Positions 6,602 through 64,000 of a DNA stretch of 64,000 nt are shown here, in pieces. Made by a program: the position numbers and the translations under genes. Positions within the stretch are counted from its first letter, which is position 1, and every line of letters starts with the position of its first letter. Origin of the DNA: Nymphaea colorata (lineage: Eukaryota; Streptophyta; Magnoliopsida; Nymphaeales; Nymphaeaceae). The stretch spans positions 19,154,848 through 19,218,847 of the forward strand of contig NC_045141.1 of NCBI RefSeq assembly GCF_008831285.2. Reading direction: 5' to 3'. The notes below the pieces were generated by a model that was not told where the DNA came from, did not search any database, and worked only from the letters and a program-made list of their open reading frames with translations.

Positions 6602-7978
6602 ATGAAGACCAGGACTCCTCCTACCCTGAACGTTCCATGTGCTGGCTGCAAAAGGTTACGGCGAAAATGCACGGCCGACTGCATCTTCGTGCCGTATTTT
6701 CCGGCAACCGAACCGGAGAAATTCGCTGAAGTGCATCGAGTTTTTGGCGCCAGCAACGTGACCAAGATGCTTCGAGTAAGAATCACTTGACTCGATCGAT
6801 CGTATTTTAACTTATTTCCTTTCTTTTCCTTCTCGTGTTTTCCTCTCTAACCGCCAACATGTTGTTGCCGAAACTTCACCAGCGAAAGTTTTGCTGCTTG
6901 TCGAGTGCTTTAGTCGACAAGATATTTCTTTCATACAAGAATGGTGCTTCGAGACAAAGTGGCATTCGATCGATATCTCTGATCTTTGCACATCTTCTTT
7001 CCTTTTATGCATACTTTTCTTTGATCATAATTTTTAAAACGTTCTGCCAAGTTGAGCTACATGGGCGTTTAACGACTTGTATCTATAAGATTTTATGCTT
7101 ACTTTTCTTTGACCGTCTAACAAACCGTCTGCTAATTGGAGCCATCTGCCTACAATGAACCTTAAAGAGTTTGGGCTCCAACAATTGTGACATACGCAGG
7201 ATTGTCCAAAAATTGCTACTTGGTTCGACGTAGATCATTACTCTTGCAATAGTCAAAGAGAAGAATAAATACGAGCAGCAATAAATTGCAGGTCTTCGAA
7301 TAGAGTTAAATGGCGCTCAACATTAACCAAGTTGCATAATATATTTCTATTTTACTAACAAAATAATTACTTCTTTGTTTAAGTGCTAGTTTTCCTTCGT
7401 GTTTGACTGTATTCAAATTCGCCTATAGTTTTTTCAATGATATCCGACCTATTACAAGTTTACATACTACAATGTCTTCATGGTGGTTTTCATTATCTCA
7501 AAACCGTACTTGACCCTCGTTCGAGAATGTTAATTAAGCCTAAACAACGAGTTCAGAGAAGAGATTTTCTTCAAATGGAGATGGCTCTTATGGATGGTAG
7601 ATATCTTACTCAGTCGTCATCTTCTCTTGTTAAAACTTCCCCTTTGATCTTCAGGATATTCCCGTGAGCCAGAGAGGGGACGCAGTCAGCAGCTTGGTGT
7701 TTGAGGCCCGTACCAGGCTCAAGGACCCCGTCTACGGCTGCGTGTCAACCATGGCCGCGCTCCAGCATCAGGTTAACCAGCTCCAGGCCGAGCTGTTGGC
7801 AGCCAGGGCGGAGAACGCCTCCCTGGGAGCCCAGCTGTCAGAGGTGATGCTGCTGCTGTCCACCGTCACGCCGAGGGCGAGCACGAGCGCCCAGTCGCTG
7901 GAAGCCGGCAACTCCGTCGATGTGGCCATAACTAGTGCCTTTGACAGGTGTTATTCTCCGGGACCCATCGTGTCTTAA
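6602..7978 (+). CDS. LBD: LOB-domain (LBD) transcription factor, class I-like
   Basis: Two exons, 6602-6775 and 7655-7978 (TAA), are separated by an 879-bp GT-AG intron at the position typical of LBD genes, just after the GAS block. They encode 165 residues. The zinc-finger-like CX2CX6CX3C motif is CAGCKRLRRKCTADC (residues 13-27). The GAS block follows (FAEVHRVFGASNVTKML), then a DPVYGC motif and a coiled-coil region (LQHQVNQLQAELLAARAEN). LBD proteins are plant-specific nuclear DNA-binding regulators of organ boundaries, vascular and lateral-root development; the target of this one is unknown. In the LX6LX3LX6L zipper the first three Leu are present and the fourth position is Asn. An out-of-frame ATG at 6580 overlaps the start and could act as an upstream ORF. 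The ATG at 6602 is chosen because it opens the frame directly into the C motif. Confidence 0.9.
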
Positions 7979-9663: not shown

Positions 9664-11230
9664 ATGGTAAACGTTTCCATTGCATGCTTCATGCGCTGTT
9701 ATCGAAATTAATTTCTCCCATGACCTTTCTGTCATTAGATTTGTGTTTTATCGTCGAATGGATCACGCTATCTGCCTTTTCTTCTTTGTTGCAAGATGGG
9801 TTCTTAGTTTTTCAGCTTTTACGTGAAAATTTCAAAAGATTTTTTATATTGGCAGACCTGTTATTGGGTACCTGTTGCAGGAGATTAAGGCCGTCCCAAT
9901 GGTTGCTAAACAAAACTGTGTTCCCAAACATAGCTTATTGCTGTACTTGTTGCTCTTGCTTGTTAATGGTACATTATCTTGATCACCTCATATATCACAT
10001 CCTTCTTTCAAGGCAAACATGGTCAGATTGACACCTCTGCCTTCCAACGGGCCTGTTACCTAATTGCACGCCATCGATCTGAAATTTCACTCTTCTCTCC
10101 AATTGAACATTTTCATTTTTCTCTTCATTGGTGGTTGCCTTTGCTTCCTAGAGTAATTGAATCTTAGCTAAAGAATGTGGCGTGGAGAATCAAGTTTGGA
10201 GTTAAATATTGGGCCTAACACGTTGGTAACAAAACTTGTTCAGGCAAACTCGGCGTCGGGGATGGCGGTCAACGACGAGTGCAAGCTCAAGTTCCTGGAG
10301 CTGAAGGCGAAGAGGATACACAGGTTCATCGTGTTCAAGATCGACGAAAAGTTGCAGCAGGTGACGGTAGACAAGATCGGGGGTCCGTCCGAGAGCTACG
10401 ACGACTTCACCGCCTGCATGCCCGCCAATGAGTGCCGCTACGCCGTCTTCGACTTCGACTTCATCACCTCCGAGAACTGCCAGAAGAGCAAGATCTTCTT
10501 CATCGCCTGGTACGCTTCGTCTACGTTGTTTCACCTTTCTTCTAATTTTGTAAAGATGGAGATATGTACCAAAACCCCTTCATCACTCTCTTTAATGTCC
10601 TTTCTCAAGTAATACTCTGGGCCACAGCTATTGGAACCAAGTTTGACGGAAAAGCAGAAGAATAAATAAAGGATCAGAACATTCCCTAAGCTTTTCAAAG
10701 ATTGCTGATGGCTTTTACTTTCTATATCATCAAAACCATTAGGTCCCTCTTTAAATGCATCCCAAATGCTGTGAAGGATCAACTCACATGCTGGTTTTGG
10801 CAGAAGATCAACCCTGACCCATAAAACTTAATAGATGGCAGAGCTCATCCTGTACCGCGAAAATATGGTAGGAAAAGAAAATCTGATCCTACAAACATTC
10901 ACTGCCTTTTTCTGGCTCTGGCCCTCTGTACTGTTCTTGCTTGATGGCAGCCATTAATGCCTACCTGGCTATCTGTGCTAAATGACTGCGAGTTGGCAAA
11001 GCGGAAAACATGTTGAACTTTGAAAAAGTGCCACCAAAAGTTCAAAACCATTGAATAACCAATCTGTTATCTTGTGAAGGTCGCCTGACACTTCCAGAGT
11101 GAGGAGCAAGATGCTGTACGCGAGCTCCAAGGACAGATTCAAGAGAGAGCTGGACGGCATCCAGGTGGAGTTGCAGGCCACAGATCCCAGCGAAATGGGG
11201 ATCGACATCATACGCGCCCGCGCCTTATAG
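9664..11230 (+). CDS. ADF: Actin-depolymerizing factor (ADF/cofilin)
   Basis: Three coding exons: 9664-9666 (the ATG alone, followed by GTAAAC), 10244-10509 and 11080-11230 (TAG). They encode 139 residues, the normal plant ADF length. A first exon holding only the initiator codon is the known plant ADF gene structure and decides the start here. The protein begins [20 protein letters not shown], with the conserved regulatory Ser6, and carries the ADF-homology domain throughout: [29 protein letters not shown] and the long actin-binding helix [20 protein letters not shown]. ADFs bind G- and F-actin in the cytoplasm, sever filaments and increase subunit turnover; phosphorylation at Ser6 switches them off. 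The exons are GC-rich and the introns AT-rich. Confidence 0.95.
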
Positions 11231-12220: not shown

Positions 12221-13585
12221 AGAAAATGAATTCTATTAAACGAGACAGCATGAGTAGACTCCTGAGTGAATTGTCGAAACAATAGAAGAACGGCTGTAAA
12301 CACCATCCTAAACAAGATGTCATTCCTGACAATCCAAATAGACCACGGTCCACCAGAAAACTAGAAGCCATATTCTCCAAACGAATCTCCATTTTTTAGA
12401 TCGTCGACCAAATAATAAACCTCAGGCGAAAGATTGAATGGATAAAGTGGGGGGAGAGAGAGCGAGAAAGTTTCACTTTATAGGTTTATCTTGGATTGGC
12501 AGCTCTCTACCATGCACTTATTTTTGCAAGATATTTAAAAATGAACAGATATCCAAATGTAACTAGTAGGTAGACGTACGTGTGCGGTAATTGATAGGCC
12601 TCAAACAATTTTGAGTTAAAGATGCATTCAAACACCGAAAAGGATATACTTTGACAAGATCTTGACTTATCTTCTCAATTTATTATATAGGTAAAACTAT
12701 ACTTAGAGCGAGATCTTGACTTACTAAGTTGTTTAGGCGTTTAAAATCAAAGCCTTGTGGCTAGCACCCCAATTGTAAGCGCCTTTGCATTGTTGGATTG
12801 TGCATAGAGCTGAGGTTGTTTCTCTAATAGATAAGGTTTGATTCTGCCATGCTTTGAGAGGATACCGTTTTCATTTAATTAGATAAATAGAAAAAGATCA
12901 TCATTACCAGTCCTACTTTGGTTTCAATGAAGCTTGTACAAGAAAAAGATCTTGGATCGTCAAATTATCAGCATGCACGCACGATATCAGCTATTCATAT
13001 TTTGCTTGCTTAAAAGTACATATAATAGTGGAAATAATTAATTTAACTTGTTTCCTTCAAAATCATTTGGAAATCATATCTACATGTATAAATTATTCAC
13101 AAATTCTCGCAAAGTTGCAATCAAACAAACCAAAAAATCAAAATGGTATCAAGAGACAATGTGGGATGTACCAAATAATGCTGTTACACGCATTAATTCT
13201 CTTTTATCTCGCATATTCCATTTAGTATTTATTGCCTTTTGTTGGCCACTTCTAGGAAAGGGAGTGGAATTAAACCTGATCATTCGGAACATGTGTTAGG
13301 TTAACGATAAAGATAAGCTCTTTATTGTTATGCACAATATCAGCTCTATGTAAAAAACTTTTTAAATATGAAGCCTTTGCCTAACATTATGACCAAACAT
13401 TAGGGACTGAATAAAAATATTGCTTATAATTTTCTGCCCTCGAGCCCTAACCGTTGCAAACCCTCCCTCCCTCTCTCGCTTCTCTGCTCCAGCGGCTCAT
13501 CTCGTTCAGCCGACCCGCCGGGAACCTCTCCTACCCTCTCTCTCTCTCGTGCCCCCTCATTGGTGTTGCCTTCTCGAAGCCAGTA
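11231..13585. other. Intergenic region, ADF to NOB1
   Basis: No supported gene. It holds ADF 3' flank, a compound CA/GA microsatellite (12153-12219) and AT-rich DNA. The CT-rich stretch at about 13455-13585 is probably the NOB1 leader; it is open in the NOB1 frame but has no in-frame ATG before 13586. Confidence 0.55.
12153..12219. repeat. Compound microsatellite (CA)n(GA)n
   Basis: About 21 bp of CA repeats pass directly into about 46 bp of GA repeats. It is probably length-variable between individuals. Confidence 0.95.
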
Positions 13586-16500
13586 ATGGCTGCTCAGGTG
13601 TCTGCCGGTGGGTGGAGCGATGTGCTTCGGAAGCCGCCGCCTCCGAAGCAGCAAGAAGGAATTTCGAGTGGAGTGGTCGAGTCATTAAAGTCGAGCGAGG
13701 GAATCAGTATAGCTGTTGTCGACGCCAATGCGATAATCCAGGGAGGGGAGAAGCTGAACGATGGAAAGAAGAGGATTGTTTCTGTTGAGGAGGTATTGCA
13801 GGAAATTAGGGACCCTGCTTCTCGTCATAGACTTGCGTCGCTTCCGTTCCCCATTGAGGTCATGGAACCCTCGCCTGAGGCAATTAAGAAAGGTAACTCT
13901 TGTTCAACTTTACCTCGAAAACATGTTGGGTTCTTGTTTGACAAAAAATAGACTTTGTTATGCTGTGTTCTTTTGCTTTCTTATTCACAGGCCATGGTTA
14001 ACTCATACCATGTACTCCGTATATATCTCTCCTGTGATTAACGAGGTTGCGCAAATGCTTTTTGTTTTTATATGAGTGTTGTTGTAGTTGGCGATATTGC
14101 TTTTCCATTTGGGGTTGGTTCTTATCATCTGTATTAGGTGCTTGTTCTGTTACTTCTAAGTCATGGTAAGTTTCGGTTAGGCGTGGCAAGGACGCACGTG
14201 AATGGAACATATTAATTAGATGTTCGATAAAACTTGCCATCTAAGTTTTTCTAAATTTCAACATGCTACTATGGTAATTTAGTAAGGTGTGTTCTCTGTT
14301 GGTCCTTTTCGCACGCGTGCACAATGGAAAATCTAAGCTATTGACATATTTTCTCTGGATTTTGTTTTGTGCTAAAAGATTAACCAAAAGTTAGTCTAAT
14401 AATAACTTCACTGTCAACAACTTTAATTCTTCATACGCAAAAAGATCCTTTACAAATTTTTTGATTTCTTATTTCTGTATTTTTCACGGCTTACTTTGTA
14501 TTTAATTAGGTGGGCTGAGGAGAGCAGTGAAAGCCTTGGGCGTTTTATATGGATTTGTTGGCAGCATGTGCCACGACCTGCACTGTCCTTTCTTCTTTTC
14601 ATCTTGTGTGGGAATGTAGAACCCATTTTGTTCTCTGTCATGATTGGTAGCTAAAACTTTCTTCGTGGGCTTATCCATATTCACCACGGCTTTTAATTGT
14701 AGTAAGTCTAATCCTCTAGAGTAGAACGAGTGTTTTGGTTGCTGATTATCACGGCCAATTTGATGTTGAAGTTCTTAGGCTTTCTGCTTCATAACAAAGA
14801 AGTGAATTACAATTTGGAGAGGGTGTGACTATAAACCTGTTGATTTAAAAGGTGCACGTGTTTGCAGATCCCTTTTGTAAAATGTGCAGCTTTCGGACAA
14901 GGAATCTGAAGTCCTTGTTCCGTTGCAAAGTTATATCTCAGGATCAGAAATCACCTTCATGTCTAGACAAATGTCTTCAGTCTACATTTATCTCATGTCT
15001 ACTTCTCTTTTTTCCTTTATTTCTGGGGCCATTTGGACAGTTTCACTGAAATTGTGAAGCAAAAGTGTATTATCTTGCAAAACAGTATGAATCATGCTTA
15101 TCCTAGCACTTTTTTTGTGTCTTTGTGGTAAAGCAAGTGCAGTGATTCTTAACTGAAACTCCATATCAAATACTGCAAGTTAGGTTTCCTTTTTTTTTTT
15201 TTTTTTTTGCCTCCTGCAGTTGTTAACTTTGCGAGAGAGACCGGCGATCTGCAGATTCTTTCAGATGTTGATATAAAGTTGATGGCTTTAACCTATACTT
15301 TGGAAGCTCAGATCCATGGCACAAACAATCTGAGAGAAAGGCCCCCTCCACTTCATCTGGTAAGAGTGAAAAGGTTACCTGAAAATATGATGCCTGGATG
15401 GGGATCAAATGTTCCCAACTTGGAAGAGTGGGAAGCTCTTGAGCATGCTGTGGAGGCAGCACCAAATCCTGATTCAAGAATTTTGCCTCTTAAAGATTTA
15501 TCACTCAATATAACACCTGAAAATGGAGATATGTGCAATAAAGTTGATTTAATGGTAGATTCTGGTGAAATTGAAACTTCTTCACAAGAAATGGGAGGTT
15601 TTCCTTCGAGGAGAGCTAATAGATTTCCTCACGTGAAGCGTGAGATAAACATTGAGGACAAAAAGATGGTAGCAGATGGAATTGATGCTTCTAAAGGGGA
15701 AGTTGATGGAAATCCTGCGGATTGGAGGCCTGCTGTTAGTCGAAGCACACATCGCAGATATTTGAAGAGACAAGCAAGGCGTGCACTATCCAGTGCATCA
15801 GTACAATCTGAGCATCCTGAGGCAGAAGAGAGTGTTGAAAGCACACAACTAGATGGTACTTCTCTGGAAGATGAAAGTTCAAATGTGAACCAAGAGAAAG
15901 ATCATTACCTCAATAAAGAGATGCACTATGAAATTTTAGCCTCTGAGACTGGGGATTTGCATTCTTCTCAATTAATGGAGAATATGAATGAATCATGCAT
16001 GCCTTCTGATGATGTGCAGCATTCAGATGCTCTGGTGAGTGAACCAGGATTATGTGTAGAAGATGATATCCTGGATGAGATTGGTCACTTGAAGTTGGAG
16101 GGTGATGAAACTGAAATTGAACTTAATAAATTTAACCATCTAGAGATCTCTAGTCTTAGTGATCAAAATATAGATGGTAGTGAGGTGGATGACAATAACA
16201 GTGAGCAAAGTTGGACTCTTCGTTCCTTGTCTGAATCCAGTGTAGCTTGTGTGACAAGTGACTTTGCCATGCAAAATGTTATTCTCCAGATGGGTCTACG
16301 CCTTCTAACTCCCAGTGGTATGCAAATTCGCCAGTTGCATAGGTATGAATGGCTGCTTCAATGGCTTTTCCTTCTAGGCATTTTTTTTCTCCCTTTTTTC
16401 CCTTTAGTATGAGATCTTAGTATGACCTACCCAACTTGTTTATTGCTGCAGGTGGGTGTTGAAATGTCATGCTTGTAATAGAGTGACTGCAGAAATTGGA

Positions 16501-22674: not shown

Positions 22675-25600
22675 CTAGGCTCCGAACTTGGGCACCTTCG
22701 CAGCAGAAACCTTGGCCAGGAAGTGCTCCGCCACCAGCCTTCGCTGAATCTTGCCGGTCGCCGTCTTCGGCAAGCTGTCGGCAACGAACACCCTCTTGGG
22801 CACCTTGAAGCTCGCCAAGTTTTTCTTGCAGAAGCGCAAGAACTCCGCCTCGTCTATCGACGCTCCGTCCCTCGGCACCACCGCGCAGTTGATCTGCAAG
22901 AACAAGTCCAGATTCCATGTTAGTCAAAAGGGCCGGACCCTCCACCAAGACTAACCCACTTCCTACTCGTCAAACGGACCAGAGGTTTGAAATCTGTCGG
23001 CTGCCAACGATGGAGTAGACACCAAAGAAAAGATCTCGGATGCGACCCCGCCCTAGCACTCTATACAAGACTAAAAGGATTTTTTTTTTTTTTTTTTTTC
23101 CTGCAACGAGAAGGCCAGTCCCACCACGCTAGAGCCTAGATACCCTTTGCTGCGCGGGCACAGAATCCCAGCAAGACGCGTCGCTGCGGCCCATGCTGGG
23201 ACTCCGCAAGGGGAGCCAAAAATAACGCCCGAAAAGGAACAGGGGTGAAAAAATGACACAGTAAAAAGGGTCGGACCTCTTCGCCGTATTTGTCGTCGGG
23301 AACGCCAAAGGCAACCGCCAGAGCAACATCTGGGTGCGATTGCATAACCGAGTCCACCTCAATGGGCGATATCTTCTCTCCTGCACAAGTCAAATGAAAC
23401 CCCATATATCAGGAAAAGATTTTATCCCGATGAGGATTCCCCGGCCAGAAGGCAGCGACAGAGGCTTAACAGATAAGAGAAAGGGCAAAACTCAAATCTG
23501 AGAATTTAACCCACCTCCACGGTTGATGAGTTCCTTGATTCGGCCAACGAGGTGAAGATAGCCATCTGAGTCCATGTATCCAAGGTCACCCGTGTGGAAC
23601 CAACCGAACCCGAAGGCCGCCTTGTTGGCTTCGGGGTTGTTCTTGTACCCCTTGGTTACGTTGGGCCCTCGTATGCACACCTCGCCGTTCGCGTTCGCCC
23701 TCTGGATCACACCATTCTCGTCCAGGATCGCCATCTCCTGACCCACCGGCCGGCCAACTGAGCCCGGCTTGTGTGGGCCGCGGTGGGGCAAAGGATTGGA
23801 TGCCATCAAGTGGGAGGCTTCCGTCATGGCGTAGGCCTCTAGCACGGGCGCGCCGAAGGCCTTCTCCAACCGATCCAGCACGGCAGGGGCGAGCGAGGCG
23901 CTGCAGCTACGGATAAACCTCAGCTTCGGGTAGTCGGTTTCGGGCTTGGAAGCGTGGCGGTCGAGGAGGATCTGGTGGATGGTGGGCACCGCGGTATAGA
24001 ACGTGGCCCCGTACGCCCGCATGTCCGCCCAGAACGTCGAGGCAGAGAAGCGGCCTGCTGCTGGGAGGACGGCCGATGCTCCGGCCGTGAGCGGGGAGAG
24101 AAGGCCCGCAAGCAGACCGTGGACATGGAAGAGGGGGAGGACGATGACGGTGGCGTCGGTGGAGGAGAGCTCATAGACCCCGACGATGTTCTGGGTGGAG
24201 GCACCGAGGTTTTGCTGGGTCAGGGGAACGCCCTTGGGCCGGCTGGTAGTGCCGGAAGTGTGGAGAAAGAGCGCCACGTCGTCGGCATCGTTGATAACCG
24301 AGGAGAGAGAGGAGTCCGACTGGTGCTCATCCACGAGGAGATTTCCAGCGATGGAAACAGAGAGGGTCGAGGGATCGATGCAGACGGCGACCCGGGGGAT
24401 ACCGAGCTTCGCCGCGGCGATGACGGAGGCGGAGTTGCTGGCGGCTTCGGCAGGGGTCAGGAGGAGCCTCGATTCGGAGTCGGAGAGATAGAACTCGAAC
24501 TCGTCGGCGGTGTAGGCCGAGTTGAGTGGTGCGGCCGTGGCCCGGGCTCGGATCACCGCCAGGAAAGCCACCACGAACTGCAATTAGCAAGGAATTGAAA
24601 CTAGTTTAGAGATTAACAAATCAAGTTTAAATTTGTAAACTCAGATTTTGGTCACAGAAGATGACGATGGAAAACCGTCCAAACGGCCCATGAGGTGTCC
24701 CACTATCGACACCCTCAAAATTTTTCAGAAAAATATATAGAAATAAGGAACCACGAAATTTTGGTTAAAGCTCACGACATCTTCGTGTAAGCACAGGAAC
24801 GCGTGGTAGGCGCGAGGACGAAAGAGTGGCAGGAAGCAACCGAAAATGAAAGGGTAATGGACAAGGAATCCCCTACTAATGGAAACGAAGCAAACCAAAA
24901 ATCAAGAAGTAAATAAATATTCATAATAGTAAAGAAACATTTCAACGACCCACCATATCTTCTAATTCGAATCATCTTCTTCTACATCCTTCTTCCTAAA
25001 AATTCATTTGTGAACTCTTCGGTGTAAATGACAAGAAAAAGAATGAAAGCACCAGGCCTGGCACACGAGCTTCGTGTTTTAGAAAATCTCTAGCCCTGAC
25101 CTGAGAGTACGGAATTATCAATAAAACGTATGTCCTACTATGCACATAGCCCCACAGAGAAAGAAAACCCTCGTGGAAATCGCGTGCCATGAGAGCAGCA
25201 GACGAGAACAAAACGATGCCAAACTCAGAAATCAAGAAACCGTAACAGAGAGTCACGCCACACTGCAGAATGATTTGTTAATTATTATTTTTAATAGAGA
25301 GGCACAGAAGGGGGCCCAAAAAAAAAAAAGGTCGAAGCTCCTTCATCGAAGTCACGAGATCGTCAAATCGAAGAAGCCTAAAAGGGAAAACAAAAGAAAG
25401 AGGAGGAAAAATCTTGATATAAACGGAAAGAAGATATTGGAAAAAGCAAAGAAGGAAAAATCCGAGGGAGTTTCCCATGAAGAAGACAACGAATCGTTCA
25501 CGAAAGCAATGAGCAGGAATCAAGAGACAGAGAGGAAGCAGAGAACTAGGGCGACTCACCTCGATGGTATTGGGGAAGGTAAGTGCAACGACATCGCCGC

Positions 25601-25781
25601 GTCGGACGCCGAGGCGGAGAAGACGGTCGGCGGCCTGGTCGACGAGCTCGTCGAGCCGGCCGTGCGTAAGCTCATACTTGCCAGAGAGAGCAAGCGCTCG
25701 CCGGTCGGGGAACTCGGCGGCGGCCTTCTTCAGCAGGCCGGTGAGGGTTCGGTGGCCCGAAACTCTAGCGTTCTCGGCCAT
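22675..25781 (-). CDS. AAE3: Acyl-activating enzyme 3-type oxalyl-CoA synthetase
   Basis: Four exons on the minus strand: 25781-25560, 24577-23515, 23380-23277 and 22893-22675 (TAG), 535 residues. This ANL-superfamily ligase adenylates its acid substrate and transfers it to CoA. AAE3 orthologues use oxalate (oxalate + ATP + CoA to oxalyl-CoA), the first step of oxalate breakdown. Visible motifs are the P-loop HTSGTTSRPKG (about 180-190), YAMTEAS (323-329), GWFHTGDLG with the AMP-ribose Asp (about 399-407), the hinge GRIKELINRGGEKISPIEVD, and the catalytic Lys511 in LPKTATGKIQRR. No N-terminal targeting peptide and no C-terminal SKL are seen (end KVPKFGA), which fits a cytosolic enzyme. It is about 20 residues longer than Arabidopsis AAE3, mostly at the ends. 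The coding exons are very GC-rich and give long antisense open frames that are not genes. Confidence 0.95.
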
Positions 25782-26018
25782 CCTTCCCTTCTATCCAACC
25801 AAATCAATGAGCAGAGAAAACAGCGAACACCCCCGAAAAACAGAGTGGCCCGATCGAGATAAGTGCAAACCGATAACGAAAATGGAGGAAACAGGACCCC
25901 TGAAGAACTTTGCTGAAGAAAATGAAGACACTTTTCCTGTTCTTCTACTTTCCTTTTCTGTCTATAGGAGAAAGAAGGAAGATCACAGCGGCGGAGAAGG
26001 CGGGGGTGGACGACACAG

Positions 26019-42807: not shown

Positions 42808-42861
42808 GATCGCCCTTAGCCATCAGCACAACAATCGCCGCCAAGAGAGGCAGCAGCTGCC

Positions 42862-45800
42862 ATGATTGGCAACGTGAAGCTGGGGGTGGAGGTGCTCAGC
42901 GCCACAAACCTGATCGCCAAGGATGGGGAGGGTACGTCGAGCGCCTTCGTCGAGCTCCACTTTGATGGCCAGCGGCACCGCACCACCATCAAGGAGAAGG
43001 ACCTCAACCCACAGTGGAACGAGAGGTTCTCCTTCACCGTCTCCGACCCCGCCAACCTCCCCAACCTCACCCTCGACGCGTATGTCTACCACGATATCAA
43101 GCCCTCCCACTCCCGCTCCCTCCTCGGCAGGGTCCGCCTCCACTCTCATGCCTTTGTTGCCCAGCAGGATGCCGTCACCCTCAGCTACCCGCTCGAGAAG
43201 CGGAACATCATATCCCGCGCCAAAGGAGAACTCTCCCTCCGGGTTTACCTCCTTGACGACCACCTCTTCCACAACGTCCAGCCTTCCATACCCTTCGTAA
43301 CGGAGCCGGTTGTGCCGACGCCGGCCCCGGTACCGGTGGCTGAACCTGCGCCCGAAGCACCCCGGAAGGGCCATAACCACCGAGATACCCACCAATTCTA
43401 TAGTCTCCCCAATCAGCACTCTGCCCAGGAGCCTCCACCCAGGGTGGTGATCAACCACGACGAGGCCAAACCTGTCCCACCACCGGTGATGCGCGTATAC
43501 AACAACGGCGTTGGTGTTGGCGCCGGCGGCATTCCTTTCGTTCAGACAATGCCCTCCTCTTCCGGCGAGTTCTCGCTCAAGGAGACCAGCCCTCTTCTGG
43601 GAGGCGGCCAGGTGGTCGGCGGCCGGGTCATCCGTGGGACCGAGAAGCCGATGAGCACCTACGACCTGGTCGAGGAGATGCGCTACCTATTCGTCAGGGT
43701 AGTGAAGGCGCGGGATCTGCCCGCCATGGACGTCACGGGGAGCTGCGATCCGTTTGTGGAGGTGAAGCTCGGCAACTACAAGGCCACGACGCGCCACTTT
43801 GAGAAGAACTCCAAGCCCGAGTGGAACGAGGTGTTTGCTTTCTCTCGGGAGCGGCTGCAGTCATCGGTAGTGGAGGTAGTGGTGAAGGACAAGGACATGA
43901 TCAAGGACGACTTCATCGGGCGGCTGCGACTAGACATCAATGAGATCCCCGTCCGGGTGCCCCCCGATAGCCCTCTCGCTCCCGAGTGGTACCGGCTGGA
44001 GAAAAAGGACGGGGAGAAGCTGGACAAGGGAGAGCTGATGCTCGCCGTCTGGATCGGCACGCAAGCAGACGAGTCGTTCCCAGAGGCATGGCACTCGGAC
44101 GCCATCCCCAAAAAGGACGGGTTCCACGTCTCCAACATACGTTCTAAGGTGTACCACTCGCCCAGGCTGTGGTACCTGCGTCTGCAAATCATCGAAGCCC
44201 AGGATCTGTACGTGAAGGACAAGACCCGCTACCCGGAGGTCTACGTCAAGGCCCAGCTCGGGAACCAGACCATCAAGACCCGATTCATGCAGAGCCGCAA
44301 CTTCAGCCCCGTCTGGAACGAGGAACACATGTTCGTCGCGGCCGAGCCGTTCGAGGACCACCTCGTTCTCACCATCGAGGACCGGGTCGGACCCAACAAG
44401 GACGAGACGATCGGCAAGTGTTCCATCCCGCTCGCCACCATCGAGAAGCGGGCGGACGACCGCCTCTTCAATGCCAAGTGGTACAACCTCGAGCGGCCAG
44501 GCATTATCGACCCCGAGGTGCTCAAGAAGGACAAGTTCGCGACCAGGCTGCACATCCGGGTCTGCTTCGACGGTGGGTACCACGTGCTCGACGAATCAAC
44601 GCACTATAGCAGCGATCTCAGGCCGACGGCCAAGCAGCTGTGGAAGCAGTCCATCGGGGTGCTGGAGCTCGGCATCCTGAACGCCCAGACCTTGCACCCG
44701 GTGAAGACCCGAGAAGGGAAGGGCGTGTCCGACACGTTCTGCGTGGCTAAGTATGGGCAGAAATGGGTACGGACGCGGACCATAATCGACGACCCCTGCC
44801 CCAAGTGGAACGAGCAGTATACATGGGAGGTGTACGACGCCTGCACCGTGCTGACGGTGGGAGTGTTCGACAATGGCCACATCGGCGGCGAGGACAAGTC
44901 CAATGGGCACAAGGACCTCAAGGTGGGTAAGGTAAGGATACGGCTGTCGACGCTGGAGGCGGGGCGGGTGTACACACACTCGTACCCGCTGCTGGTTCTC
45001 CACTCTTCGGGCGTGAAGAAGATGGGAGAGATACACCTCGCCATACGCTTCTCGTGCACCTCCACGCTCAACATGATGTGCACGTACGCGAGGCCGCTGC
45101 TCCCCAAGATGCACTACGTGCGGCCGCTGAGCATACACCAGGTGGACACGCTGCGGCATCACGCCGTAAGCATCGTCGGGGCTAGGCTGGGGAGGGCCGA
45201 GCCGCCGCTGAGGAAGGAGGTGGTCGAGTACATGTCCGATGTCGACTCCCACATGTGGAGCATGCGGCGGAGCAAGGCAAACTTTTTCCGACTCATGGGC
45301 GTCTTCTCGGGCCTCATGGCCGTGGCCAAGTGGTTCGGCGAGGTGTGCGCCTGGACCAACCCGGTGACCACCGTTCTGGTGCACCTCCTGTTTGTGATTC
45401 TGGTGTGCTTCCCGGAGCTGATATTCCCGACGGCCTTCCTCTACATGTTCTTGATCGGGCTCTGGAATTACCGGTACCGAGCGAGGCACCCGCCGCACAT
45501 GGACACGAGGTTGTCCCACGCAGAGGCAGTGCACCCAGACGAGCTGGACGAGGAGTTCGACACGTTTCCCACGAGCCGCAGCGCGGAGCTGGTGAGGATG
45601 AGGTACGATCGTCTGAGGAGTGTAGCGGGGAGGATACAGACGGTGGTGGGAGACGTGGCCACGCAAGGGGAGCGGCTGCATTCGCTGCTCAGCTGGAGAG
45701 ACCCGCGGGCGACCACCATCTTCCTAGCCTTCTGCTTCTGCGCGGCCATGGTGCTGTACGTGACGCCATTCCAAGTGGTTCTGGTGGCTCTGGGATTCTA

Positions 45801-45894
45801 CCTGATGAGGCACCCCAGGTTCAGGTACCGCCTTCCCTCCACTCCCCTCAACTTCTTCCGGCGCCTCCCGGCTAAGACCGACAGCCTGCTCTGA
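42862..45894 (+). CDS. MCTP: MCTP, multiple C2-domain and transmembrane region protein
   Basis: A single-exon CDS of 1010 residues. Four C2 domains lie at about 5-125 (KLGVEVLSATNLIAKDGEGT), 272-390 (LFVRVVKARDLPAMDVTGSC), 433-555 (WYLRLQIIEAQDLYVKDKTR) and 597-725 (GVLELGILNAQTLHPVKTRE), with a Pro-rich linker at 150-215. A C-terminal PRT_C domain (about 797-1010) has membrane segments near 834-870 and 950-985. MCTPs sit at ER-plasma-membrane contacts and plasmodesmata, where C2 domains bind anionic lipids and the C-terminus anchors in the ER; relatives include QUIRKY and FTIP1. The N-terminal C2 places it nearest MCTP2/6/7-type proteins by memory. Ca2+-ligand Asp residues look complete only in the second C2. 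An intron-less CDS is usual for this family. The gene is far more GC-rich than its flanks. Confidence 0.96.
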   Translation: MIGNVKLGVEVLSATNLIAKDGEGTSSAFVELHFDGQRHRTTIKEKDLNPQWNERFSFTVSDPANLPNLTLDAYVYHDIKPSHSRSLLGRVRLHSHAFVAQQDAVTLSYPLEKRNIISRAKGELSLRVYLLDDHLFHNVQPSIPFVTEPVVPTPAPVPVAEPAPEAPRKGHNHRDTHQFYSLPNQHSAQEPPPRVVINHDEAKPVPPPVMRVYNNGVGVGAGGIPFVQTMPSSSGEFSLKETSPLLGGGQVVGGRVIRGTEKPMSTYDLVEEMRYLFVRVVKARDLPAMDVTGSCDPFVEVKLGNYKATTRHFEKNSKPEWNEVFAFSRERLQSSVVEVVVKDKDMIKDDFIGRLRLDINEIPVRVPPDSPLAPEWYRLEKKDGEKLDKGELMLAVWIGTQADESFPEAWHSDAIPKKDGFHVSNIRSKVYHSPRLWYLRLQIIEAQDLYVKDKTRYPEVYVKAQLGNQTIKTRFMQSRNFSPVWNEEHMFVAAEPFEDHLVLTIEDRVGPNKDETIGKCSIPLATIEKRADDRLFNAKWYNLERPGIIDPEVLKKDKFATRLHIRVCFDGGYHVLDESTHYSSDLRPTAKQLWKQSIGVLELGILNAQTLHPVKTREGKGVSDTFCVAKYGQKWVRTRTIIDDPCPKWNEQYTWEVYDACTVLTVGVFDNGHIGGEDKSNGHKDLKVGKVRIRLSTLEAGRVYTHSYPLLVLHSSGVKKMGEIHLAIRFSCTSTLNMMCTYARPLLPKMHYVRPLSIHQVDTLRHHAVSIVGARLGRAEPPLRKEVVEYMSDVDSHMWSMRRSKANFFRLMGVFSGLMAVAKWFGEVCAWTNPVTTVLVHLLFVILVCFPELIFPTAFLYMFLIGLWNYRYRARHPPHMDTRLSHAEAVHPDELDEEFDTFPTSRSAELVRMRYDRLRSVAGRIQTVVGDVATQGERLHSLLSWRDPRATTIFLAFCFCAAMVLYVTPFQVVLVALGFYLMRHPRFRYRLPSTPLNFFRRLPAKTDSLL

Positions 45895-57914: not shown

Positions 57915-58225
57915 AATGTTCATGGCGCAGTCTTCCACAGACGATCAATTTGTTAACTTCTTTATCATTGTTAACAAGAATCATTACGGCCTAATTCGGT
58001 GACATTCTCAACAACAGAGTTAACACTTGTTAAAAAGAATTATTTATTGTCTCTCTCACACAACACTTAAATGCAAAACAAGATTTCTGGCACAAGGGTC
58101 TCCAAATCCCACCAAGTTCACAAATTAAACAAAAATAAACACACACGCAAGAATTTCCAGGGCTTCACGTCGGCGCCAAATCAAACACAAGCAGTGCTTC
58201 ATTTGGCCGTGTTTGCTGCAGGCGG
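57915..58225. repeat. PAR1 3' flank, duplicated at 62491-62907
   Basis: Shares GCGCAGTCTTCCACA, GATCAATTTGTTAAC, CACTTGTTAAAAAGAAT and TTTCTGGCACAA with the second location in the same order and orientation, next to the second PAR1-like gene. Confidence 0.85.
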
Positions 58226-59525
58226 TCATGCCTCTTTGTTCTCTGGTTTCTTTTTGTGGTGGTCCTTATTCTGATGCTTCTTCTTATCGTGCTTCTTCTT
58301 CTTATGATCATCCTTCTTTGTCTTCTTCTTGTGTTGTTTCTTCTTCTTCTTCTCATCCTCTTTCTTCTTCTCGTTCTTCTTCTTCTTATCCTTCTTCTTC
58401 TTTTTGTCTGTTCCTGTCGCAGCATGTGAACGGGGCGTTGATCCTACTGTTGGCTGAGACACTGGAGCTGGCACCTGCTCGGATCCTGGAGCTGGCTCCG
58501 AGGCAGCTGCTGGTTCGGAACCCGGCGCCGGTGTTGGCTCCGACGGAGGTGGCAATGACCCTGGTGCTGGAGCCACAAAGCCGGAGCTGAGCGTCTCAAA
58601 CATCCCACGCCTGGGGTTATCGTTCAATGATTCACATAGTTTGGGGAGGAAGATGCCTGCACCATCGTTGGCAGCAATAACATCATTTTCGATACCATTC
58701 ATCATATGCAAAAGTAAACCGTAGAGAAAGAGAGAGAGAGAAAGTCATGGCGTTGATGTGGGTGCACTACAGGGTGACAAAAATGGCGGAGGGAATAACT
58801 TGCCTTCAGCTGCAGCAAGGTTGAAGTAAAGGTCGACGATGTTGGGGCAGCCTCCATAGCAAGGAGCGGAGCAAAGTCTCTCCAGGAATTGGCGCTCCAT
58901 GAGCGAGTCGGAGGAAATGCCGACCGAGCTTCTGTCCACACCACATGCCTCCACGCACCTGTCGCTCTCGACCCACCCGGCGATGTCGGCCACCTTCACC
59001 TGAGACGTCCTGCATTGCAGCCTCACCTCTTCCCCGTAATTGTACTTCTCGAGCACGCACCGCATTCCGGCCGACGACACCGAGAACGCGCACATCTCCG
59101 TCGGTAGGTTCTCGCAAACTATTTCCCCTGTTCATGATTCGACCACAACCACCACAATATTTGGTATTCATGACCAGTTACAGAGCAAAAGCAGAGGACC
59201 TCGATCGGACACCAAAAGAGCAAAATGATCGCAAAATCGAAATAATGTAGCAAGTAATGCGGGAAACATGGTCTGATCGTTTTGTTAATTAAATTACGCT
59301 CGATTCATTTGTCTACAAGAACTTCAACTGTTGGAGTTTTAGCCAAAAGAACATGCTCGATTCGAACTGACATGAACGACAACAAAATGATGAGTTACTT
59401 ATTATTGAATATTGAAGCATTGAATTGCTACGTATATATATATATTTACCGTAAACACACTGAATTGCCAACATGGAAGCGATGGCCATCGTAACCATTG
59501 CCGCAAGGCCTCGAGAACCCGCCAT
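58226..59525 (-). CDS. PAR1: PAR1-family secreted protein with Pro-rich and Lys/His-rich C-terminal extension
   Basis: Three exons on the minus strand: 59525-59450, 59127-58804 and 58656-58226 (TGA), 276 residues; known PAR1 proteins are about 170-190. A hydrophobic signal peptide (MVTMAIASMLAIQCVYG, to about residue 26) suggests secretion. The Cys-rich PAR1 domain (about 27-155) begins EIVCENLPTEMCAFSVSSAG and contains ECR-like LQCRTS, ACGVDRSSVGISSDSL, CSAPCYGGCPNIVDLYFNLA and LPKLCESLNDNPRRGM. PAR1 (photoassimilate-responsive) has no known biochemical function. Residues about 160-205 are a Pro/Ala/Ser linker (PAPGSEPAAASEPAPGSEQV). Residues 217-276 are 34 Lys and 6 His among about 59 residues (KKKKKDKKKKNEKKKEDEKK and onward). 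The second intron (58657-58803) starts with GC (AG|GCAAGT), required to keep the conserved family frame AAAEGIFLP. TATAA at 59617-59621 fits a promoter. Confidence 0.92.
58798..58804 (-). other. Non-canonical GC splice donor of PAR1 intron 2
   Basis: On the minus strand the junction reads GAAG|GCAAGT, the standard consensus of GC-AG introns; the acceptor is GTGCAG at 58657. No GT donor nearby preserves the family reading frame. Confidence 0.75.
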
Positions 59526-59616
59526 GGCGGACACCTCCCAGATGGAGGAAGATCAAGAAGACGCTCAGGAATCGCTTGCAAATTGCGATGCCCGTCTTTG
59601 GGAGCTAGGGTGGCAC

Positions 59617-59621
59617 TTATA
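59617..59621 (-). promoter_or_regulatory. Probable TATA box of the PAR1 gene
   Basis: CTATAAG on the minus strand, about 92 bp upstream of the ATG at 59525; initiation about 30 bp downstream would give a leader of about 60 nt. Confidence 0.5.
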
Positions 59622-62490: not shown

Positions 62491-62907
62491 AAGTGTTCGT
62501 AGCGCAGTCTTCCACAAATGATCAATTTGTTAACTACTTTATCGCTAGAAGAATCATTCGCCGACTTTCATTCTACCGTTCAATTGTGCGATATAGTTAA
62601 CAAGAAGGTTAACACTTGTTAAAAAGAATAATTTACCGTCTCTATCACACAACACTTTATTAATGAAAAACAACATTTCTGGCACAAAGGATCTCCAAAT
62701 CACACTACAAGTTCACCAATTAAATCCAAAACACACAAGAATTTCCAAAAACTTCAGGTAGGCACAAAATCAAACACAAGTAATGCTTCATTCGGCCGTG
62801 CAAGGCTTCAGTCTGAAGCCGGCGCCGGCGCAGATGATTCATCCTAGTTCTTTGGCTTCTTTTTGTGGTGGTCCTCATGATGATGCTACTTCCTGTCGTG
62901 CTTCTTC
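62491..62907. repeat. Second copy of PAR1 3' flank
   Basis: Matches 57915-58225 in order and orientation and ends at the stop of the second PAR1-like gene. Confidence 0.85.
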
Positions 62908-64000
62908 TTATAGGTGCTCCTTCTTCTTATCGTGATCCTTCTTATGGTGTTTCTTCTTCGTTTTCTTACCCTCCTTCATCCTCTTATTCTTCTTATCCTT
63001 CTTCTTCTTTTTGTCTCTCCTTGTCACAGGCTTTCGACCAGGCCTTGATTTTCTTGCGGGCTGAGACGTTGGGGCGGGCATTGGCTTGGAACCTGGAGCT
63101 GGCTGTGAAGGTGAAGCTGGCCTTGATCCCGGTGCTGGTTGAGACGCTGGGGCGGGCATTGGCTTAGAACCTGGAGCTGGCTTGGAGCCAGGTGCTGGCT
63201 GCCAAGGTGACGTTGGCCTTGATCCCGTTGCTGGTTGAGACACTGGGGCTAGCACTGGGTCGGAACCTGGAGCTGGCTTGGAGGAAGGTGCTCTCTGGGA
63301 AGGTGACGCTAGCCTTGATCCTGGGGCTGGCATTGGCTCAGAACCAGGAACTGGCTTGGAGGCCGGTGCTGGCAGCGTAGGTGATGCTGGCCTTGATCCT
63401 GGGGCCGGCTTGGAACCTGGAGCTTGCTTGGAGCCAGGTGCTGGCAGCGAAGGTGATGCTGGCCTTGATCTTGGTGCCGGCTTGGAACCTGGGGCTGGCA
63501 CTGGCACAGGCTTGGAACCTGGAGCTGGCTTGGAGCCAGGTGCTAGCTGCGAAGGTGACGCTGGCTTTGAGCATGGGGCTAGCACTGGCCTAGAACGTGG
63601 GGCCAGCTCGAAGGCAGGTGCTGCTTACGAAGGTGATGTTGGCCTTGATCCTGGTGCAGGTTGAGATGCTGGGGCCGACATCGGCTCAGAACCTGGAGCT
63701 GGTTCGAAGGCAGGTGTTGGCTGCGAAGGTGACGCCGGCATTGATCCAGGTGCTGGCCGAGACACTGGGGCCGGCACCGGCTCAGAACCTGGAGTGGGCT
63801 TGGAGGCAGGTGCTGGCTGCGAAGGTGACGCTGGCCCTGATCTTGGTGCTGGCTGAGACGCTGGGGCCAGCACCGGCTCAGAACCTAGAGCTGGCTCGGA
63901 GACAGGTGATGGCTGCGAAGGTGACGCTGGCCCTGATCCTGGTACTGGCCGAGACGCTGGACCTGGCTGGGAGGCAGGTGCTGGCTGCGAAGGTGATGCT
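62908..64000 (-). CDS. Second PAR1-like gene, last exon only (5'-partial), expanded Pro-rich repeats and Lys-rich tail; possibly broken
   Basis: The minus-strand frame runs from the right window edge to a TAA at 62908-62910, with one in-frame TAA at 63625-63627. At the C-terminal side it has a Lys-rich stretch (RRDKKKKKDKKNKRMKEGKK, then KKHHKKDHDKKKEHL) like the tail of the gene at 58226-59525. Before it lie at least 310 residues of Pro/Ser/Ala/Gly repeats (units such as PASPSQPAPGSKPMPAPTSQ). The shared 3' flank and tail show this is the terminal exon of a tandem paralogue; the PAR1 domain would be right of the window. The internal stop sits where other units read TCG CAG CCA and here read TCG TAA GCA, so either the protein ends without the Lys tail, or the site (also a GTAAGC donor match) is spliced out, or the copy is a pseudogene. 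The tail is shorter than in copy 1, with a changed frame at its end. Confidence 0.7.
63050..64000. repeat. Coding minisatellite, about 96-bp (32-codon) units
   Basis: Around nine or more imperfect units of 24-34 codons are read on the minus strand, each built from SPSQPAPGSK-, PMPAPASQ- and PAPGSRPA-type blocks. It continues past the window edge. The plus-strand open frames across it are shadows of the repeat. Confidence 0.9.

Follow-up and report, generated by a model that had tools for sequence, protein, structure and literature searches.

A PAR1-domain gene of Nymphaea colorata that continues into a proline-rich linker and a lysine-rich tail, with a damaged neighbouring copy

Results

The window, by which we mean the whole 64,000-nucleotide stretch of Nymphaea colorata DNA that was analysed, holds a minus-strand gene of the PAR1 family at 58226-59525, exactly the span from stop codon to ATG. 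Predicted splicing joins three exons (59525-59450, 59127-58804 and 58656-58226) into a frame encoding a 276-residue protein, the stop codon, TGA, being part of exon 3. A second, damaged copy of the linker and tail lies at the end of the window. The features of the two loci are as follows.

59616..59621, minus strand: TATAAG, a TATA-like motif about 91-96 nt upstream of the ATG (weak evidence, found by eye)
59450..59525, minus strand: exon 1, with the start codon and a hydrophobic, signal-peptide-like N-terminus (from the spliced frame and hydropathy)
59128..59449, minus strand: intron 1, GT-AG, 322 nt
58804..59127, minus strand: exon 2, encoding the bulk of the Cys-rich domain (by itself this frame matches PF06521, PAR1, at E 4.2e-51)
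58657..58803, minus strand: intron 2, GC-AG, 147 nt
58226..58656, minus strand: exon 3, with the end of the PAR1 domain, the Pro-rich linker, the Lys/His tail and the stop
58406..58576, minus strand: Pro/Ala/Ser/Thr linker, residues 161-217 (by composition)
58229..58405, minus strand: Lys-rich tail, residues 218-276 (34 Lys, 6 His, net charge +23 without His)
58043..58048, minus strand: AATAAA, a poly(A)-signal-like hexamer 177 nt 3' of the stop
62908..64000, minus strand: second linker and Lys tail, continuing past the window end; the frame is interrupted by a TAA at 63625-63627 and closes with a stop at 62908-62910
62600..62907, minus strand: the copy's damaged tail end and homologous 3' UTR (by DNA alignment)

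Elsewhere in the window, an open frame of 1024 residues on the plus strand (42820-45894) has four C2 matches and PRT_C, and its product is presumably an MCTP/FTIP-like protein. Matches to an AMP-binding enzyme at 23492-25790 (minus strand; profile parts 58-383 and 2-58) are split over two separate frames, so this is probably one intron-bearing gene. The plus strand also carries pieces of a LOB-domain gene (7634-7978), an ADF/cofilin gene (10172-10612) and a PIN_6 ribonuclease gene (13451-16412). ARAGORN, and Rfam at gathering scores, found nothing in the 64 kb.

The Pfam PAR1 profile (PF06521) matches residues 28-175 of the spliced product with 209.6 bits (E 2.5e-62; curated cut-off 25), covering profile positions 1-148 of 156 and running unbroken from exon 2 into exon 3. 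By itself the exon 2 frame scores 173.1 bits, and this gain on splicing supports the join between the two. A sequence-only reading of the locus had described a complete PAR1 domain, followed in the terminal exon and in one reading frame by a linker and a tail; the spliced frame confirms both statements, and the unbroken match supports the attachment of the third exon to the PAR1 exons. The donor of intron 2 is GC rather than GT (AAG/GCAAGT ... CAG/GCA), and AAG/GCAAGT is a good context for a GC donor. The stricter pattern TATA[AT]A has no match within 200 nt upstream of the ATG.

Residues 6-26 are hydrophobic (mean Kyte-Doolittle 1.67), and with a signal peptide judged by hydropathy only, the protein is probably secreted. 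Ten of the 11 cysteines lie downstream of this signal-peptide-like start, and residues 27-160 have a net charge of -7. Searches for relatives of the domain gave 180 pattern matches in a bacterial and archaeal collection and one in a viral collection, none of them confirmed by tblastn, as expected for a plant family. Four weak matches to complement factor H among solved structures (best E 0.05) were taken as chance. AlphaFold, given 107 residues from exon 2 and no relatives, produced a best model with a mean pLDDT of 58.7 and four others at 28.7-38.0. None of the 263 Foldseek matches to this model at E up to 10 reached E 0.001 or better, and we therefore claim no fold for the domain.

Beyond residue 175, where the Pfam match stops, the protein has another 101 residues, of which the final 59 form the Lys-rich tail. 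The 57-residue linker contains 15 Pro, 10 Ala, 8 Ser, 5 Thr and 5 Gly (67% Pro, Ala, Ser and Thr) and has a net charge of -4. It resembles arabinogalactan proteins (AGPs) in this richness and in prolines that are mostly non-contiguous, eight of the 15 being preceded by Ala, Thr or Val (AP 5, TP 2, VP 1); EP occurs three times, QP once and PPP once. The earlier label "AGP-like" is right in part; Ser-Pro is absent.

As first described, more than half of the tail is lysine, with six histidines. Lysine makes up 34 of its 59 residues (58%), joined by 6 Asp, 5 Glu, 3 Asn, 2 Gln and one each of Thr, Pro and Ala; Arg and Met do not occur in it. The histidines form four singles and one pair, with no run longer than two, and the +23 net charge leaves them uncounted. 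The C-terminus is charged (mean hydropathy of the last 20 residues -3.25). When all six frames of the window were scanned for stop-free stretches of 59 codons with at least 20 Lys, overlapping matches within 300 bases being merged, two places only emerged: this tail, with 34, and the neighbouring copy, with 22. TRF reports a period-3 CTT array at 58277-58402 (69% matches). The tail also gave a sub-threshold match to DDHD (E 0.65; 10.5 bits against a cut-off of 28.3), which was taken as composition. We found no description of a Lys-rich or AGP-like PAR1 protein in the open-access literature that was searched.

The spacer and tail at 62908-64000 went unmentioned in the sequence-only reading. When the linker is searched against the window by tblastn it gives, apart from its own match and four weak ones elsewhere (none better than E 0.07), repeated matches at 63040-63984, which share a single minus-strand frame and reach E 3.2e-07 at best. 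The tail as a tblastn query of the window returned itself and one chance match (E 5.4) and missed the copy's tail, so the kinship of the two tails rests on DNA alignment: the two loci align from linker through tail into 3' UTR, with 71.8% identity over 705 columns (blastn). In the copy's frame, 320 codons of Pro-rich repeat (63999 to 63040, interrupted by one TAA) precede a Lys-rich stretch. Past its stop, homology to the end of the gene's tail runs on in another frame that also contains stops, and for this reason we regard the copy as damaged.

Tandem repeats, whose periods include 96 and 18 bp, make up the copy's linker. It contains 11 KP, 9 RP and 6 EP pairs; the linker of the PAR1 gene lacks KP and RP and has 3 EP. 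The GSKP and GSRP units that recur in the copy resemble the regularly spaced lysines of AGP31, as these are described in the available portion of PMC10707938. For the copy's stop-to-stop frame (62908-63624), the Pfam scan lists nothing at E up to 0.01. As the copy runs on beyond 64000, any PAR1 part of it would fall outside the window.

The codons of the tail bear on its history. Fifteen lie one step from AAG: six AAA, five GAG, two AAC, one AAT and one CAG. None is TAG, AGG, ATG or ACG, and the sole Thr codon is ACA. We simulated neutral drift from an assumed pure AAG ancestor with the same number of changed codons, using three transition settings and 5000 runs per setting. Stop, Arg, Met and Ile were jointly absent in 0/5000 runs at every setting; taken singly, stops were absent in 5, 8 and 16% of runs and Arg in 0.02-3%. 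The tail's 12 Asp and His residues were likewise reached in 0/5000 runs per setting.

Differences between the gene and the copy, gap columns excluded, were also counted by codon position. At positions 1, 2 and 3 they number 3/28, 5/27 and 5/27 in the first half of the tail, 9/30, 8/31 and 11/31 in its second half, and 9/21, 7/22 and 6/22 at the end of the linker; the 3' UTR has 39/214. Third codon positions show no excess of differences between the gene and the copy, a comparison of two copies, one damaged and with no outgroup, which for those reasons cannot say which of them changed. On selection for the tail, the drift simulation (for) and the codon-position comparison (against) pull apart.

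Discussion

As the likeliest reading we propose, tentatively and just short of an even call, that this gene encodes a secreted PAR1 wall protein whose polycationic tail would hold it on pectin. The signal peptide would route the protein to the apoplast, where the Cys-rich domain, with its ten cysteines, would fold. The linker may act as a flexible spacer, probably hydroxylated and glycosylated in part, and the tail, with its charge of +23 and six further histidines, would bind de-esterified pectin by charge, as its chemistry and published analogues suggest, thereby retaining the acidic domain within the wall. Pectin is the main polyanion that secreted plant proteins meet. Counted in favour are the open spliced frame, the continuous PAR1 match, the hydrophobic start, the charged C-terminus, the charge split between residues 27-160, linker and tail (-7, -4 and +23) and a second copy in which spacer, tail and 3' UTR follow one another as in the gene. 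Counted against are the similar differences across codon positions and the copy's in-frame stop and broken tail. The interpretation of the architecture as a wall protein, already suggested by the sequence-only reading, is partly supported, and binding of a polycationic tail to pectin is plausible by analogy with AGP31, extensin and polylysine.

The analogues come from work on rhamnogalacturonan-II (RG-II). Native AGP31 and cationic AGP peptides (AGP17, 18, 19 and 31) promote its borate bridging in vitro, according to the available parts of PMC9555800 and PMC10707938. In the accessible text of PMC4973674, a His/Lys-rich extensin preparation promotes RG-II dimerisation, and polylysine and RG-II form a lasting complex, firm enough to leave the gel. 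The permanence of that complex makes a Lys-dominated tail a likelier anchor than catalyst; a catalytic role would call for weaker binding, brought about by the acidic and His residues of the tail. We think it improbable that the protein serves as an aid to pectin cross-linking, with the Lys/His tail gathering RG-II for borate bridging; polylysine bound RG-II permanently in vitro, so such an aid would need the acidic and His residues for reversibility. Were it true, the PAR1 domain would gain a place and a task in the borate bridging of the wall, and RG-II bridging would have a new, independently evolved layout.

PAR1 proteins are photoassimilate-responsive proteins, with AT3G54040 and AT5G52390 named as Arabidopsis members in the portion of PMC10998327 available, and their function is described as unknown or difficult to predict in excerpts of PMC10998327, PMC11554710 and PMC6631628. 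The first of these reports PAR1-family genes in Striga secretomes, where function is again called difficult to predict, and the last reports them in abscission zones. That setting is wall-related, as are two others that likewise favour our proposal: an EST table of pine developing xylem gives PAR with 38 (0.64%; PMC2636829, in part), and AT3G54040 is tabulated alongside AGP21 and FLA13 among putative SND2 targets (PMC3289092, in part). In the visible part of PMC11524239, a gene annotated as "PAR1 protein" is given the functions of, and a reference for, the bHLH protein PAR1; two unrelated PAR1s may be mixed up there.

A serious rival to the wall-protein reading is neutral extension: the last exon would have captured a translated, drifting (AAG)n-type repeat with no specific function, and the linker would have grown by slippage. 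We consider this possible, if on the doubtful side. The period-3 CTT array across the tail and the tandem repeats of the copy's linker speak for it, as do the missing codon-position signal between the copies and the damage to the second copy, which together make an essential role of the tail less convincing. Speaking against it, the 59 codons lack stops, Arg and Met, the commonest change from AAG is the synonymous AAA, and Asp and His are more frequent than any simulated drift made them; that frequency would also follow if GAT and CAC codons were already present in the ancestor.

The tail could instead bind metal or other polyanions such as phospholipid or nucleic acid, or be an antimicrobial polycation, with a defence-related PAR1 part. 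Six His and eleven acidic residues interspersed among the lysines fit such roles, and PAR-1 transcripts rose 634-2642-fold in mycorrhizal potato according to the available part of PMC11554710, yet the histidines do not form a run and the sequence singles out neither metal, lipid nor nucleic acid over pectin; we judge these roles unlikely. It is still less probable that the gene model is wrong and that PAR1 transcripts normally end or splice upstream of the tail. The rarer GC donor of intron 2 would favour that view, but its context is a good one, the PAR1 match gains 36.5 bits by extending into exon 3, and linker and tail follow PAR1 in one open frame with AATAAA 177 nt past the stop.

Returning to the proposed wall protein, its layout is not a one-off, since a similar spacer and tail recur at 62908-64000. 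We regard the common ancestry of linker, tail and 3' UTR with that copy as shown by the DNA alignment. The simplest origin would be local duplication of a gene already bearing all three, after which the copy would have decayed; alternatively, the copy may be an independent gene rich in Pro and Lys, and the PAR1 gene may have received a duplicate of its 3' part. The copy suggests that spacers can lengthen by repeat expansion and that tails can disappear, and the locus could show how wall-binding tails originate. Further, the strongly cationic tail offers a testable handle on the PAR1 family. If it holds the protein on pectin, PAR1 domains would act at the pectin network.

Compared with the Pfam profile of its own family, the protein is a PAR1 member in its match to positions 1-148 of 156, probably also in its hydrophobic, signal-peptide-like start, and departs from it in the 101 residues past the match, the last 59 of them Lys-rich. 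With AGP31 and other PAC-domain proteins, as far as the available texts describe them, it shares the combination of a Cys domain with a Pro-rich and a cationic part. PAC-domain proteins join another Cys domain to His-rich or Pro-rich parts (PMC7177597, in part), whereas the Cys domain here is PAR1. A PAC domain, with its six conserved cysteines, was not found, as judged by the Pfam scan rather than by a score of cysteine spacing: at E up to 1 the scan listed PAR1 and the sub-threshold DDHD only, and not the PAC/Ole family. AGP31, in the text available, carries a His-rich stretch towards the N-terminus, and lysines recur at intervals of 4 or 8 residues along much of that protein; the basic part here is one C-terminal Lys tract, whose 6 His in 59 residues, at most two in a row, do not form an AGP31-type His-rich stretch.

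The Lys-rich AGPs (AGP17, 18 and 19), as partly documented, resemble our protein in a basic stretch adjoining Pro-rich sequence. The classical members carry a C-terminal GPI-anchor signal, which by hydropathy is not seen here because the C-terminus is charged. What sets the present protein apart from them is a much longer Lys tract, joined to a PAR1 domain.
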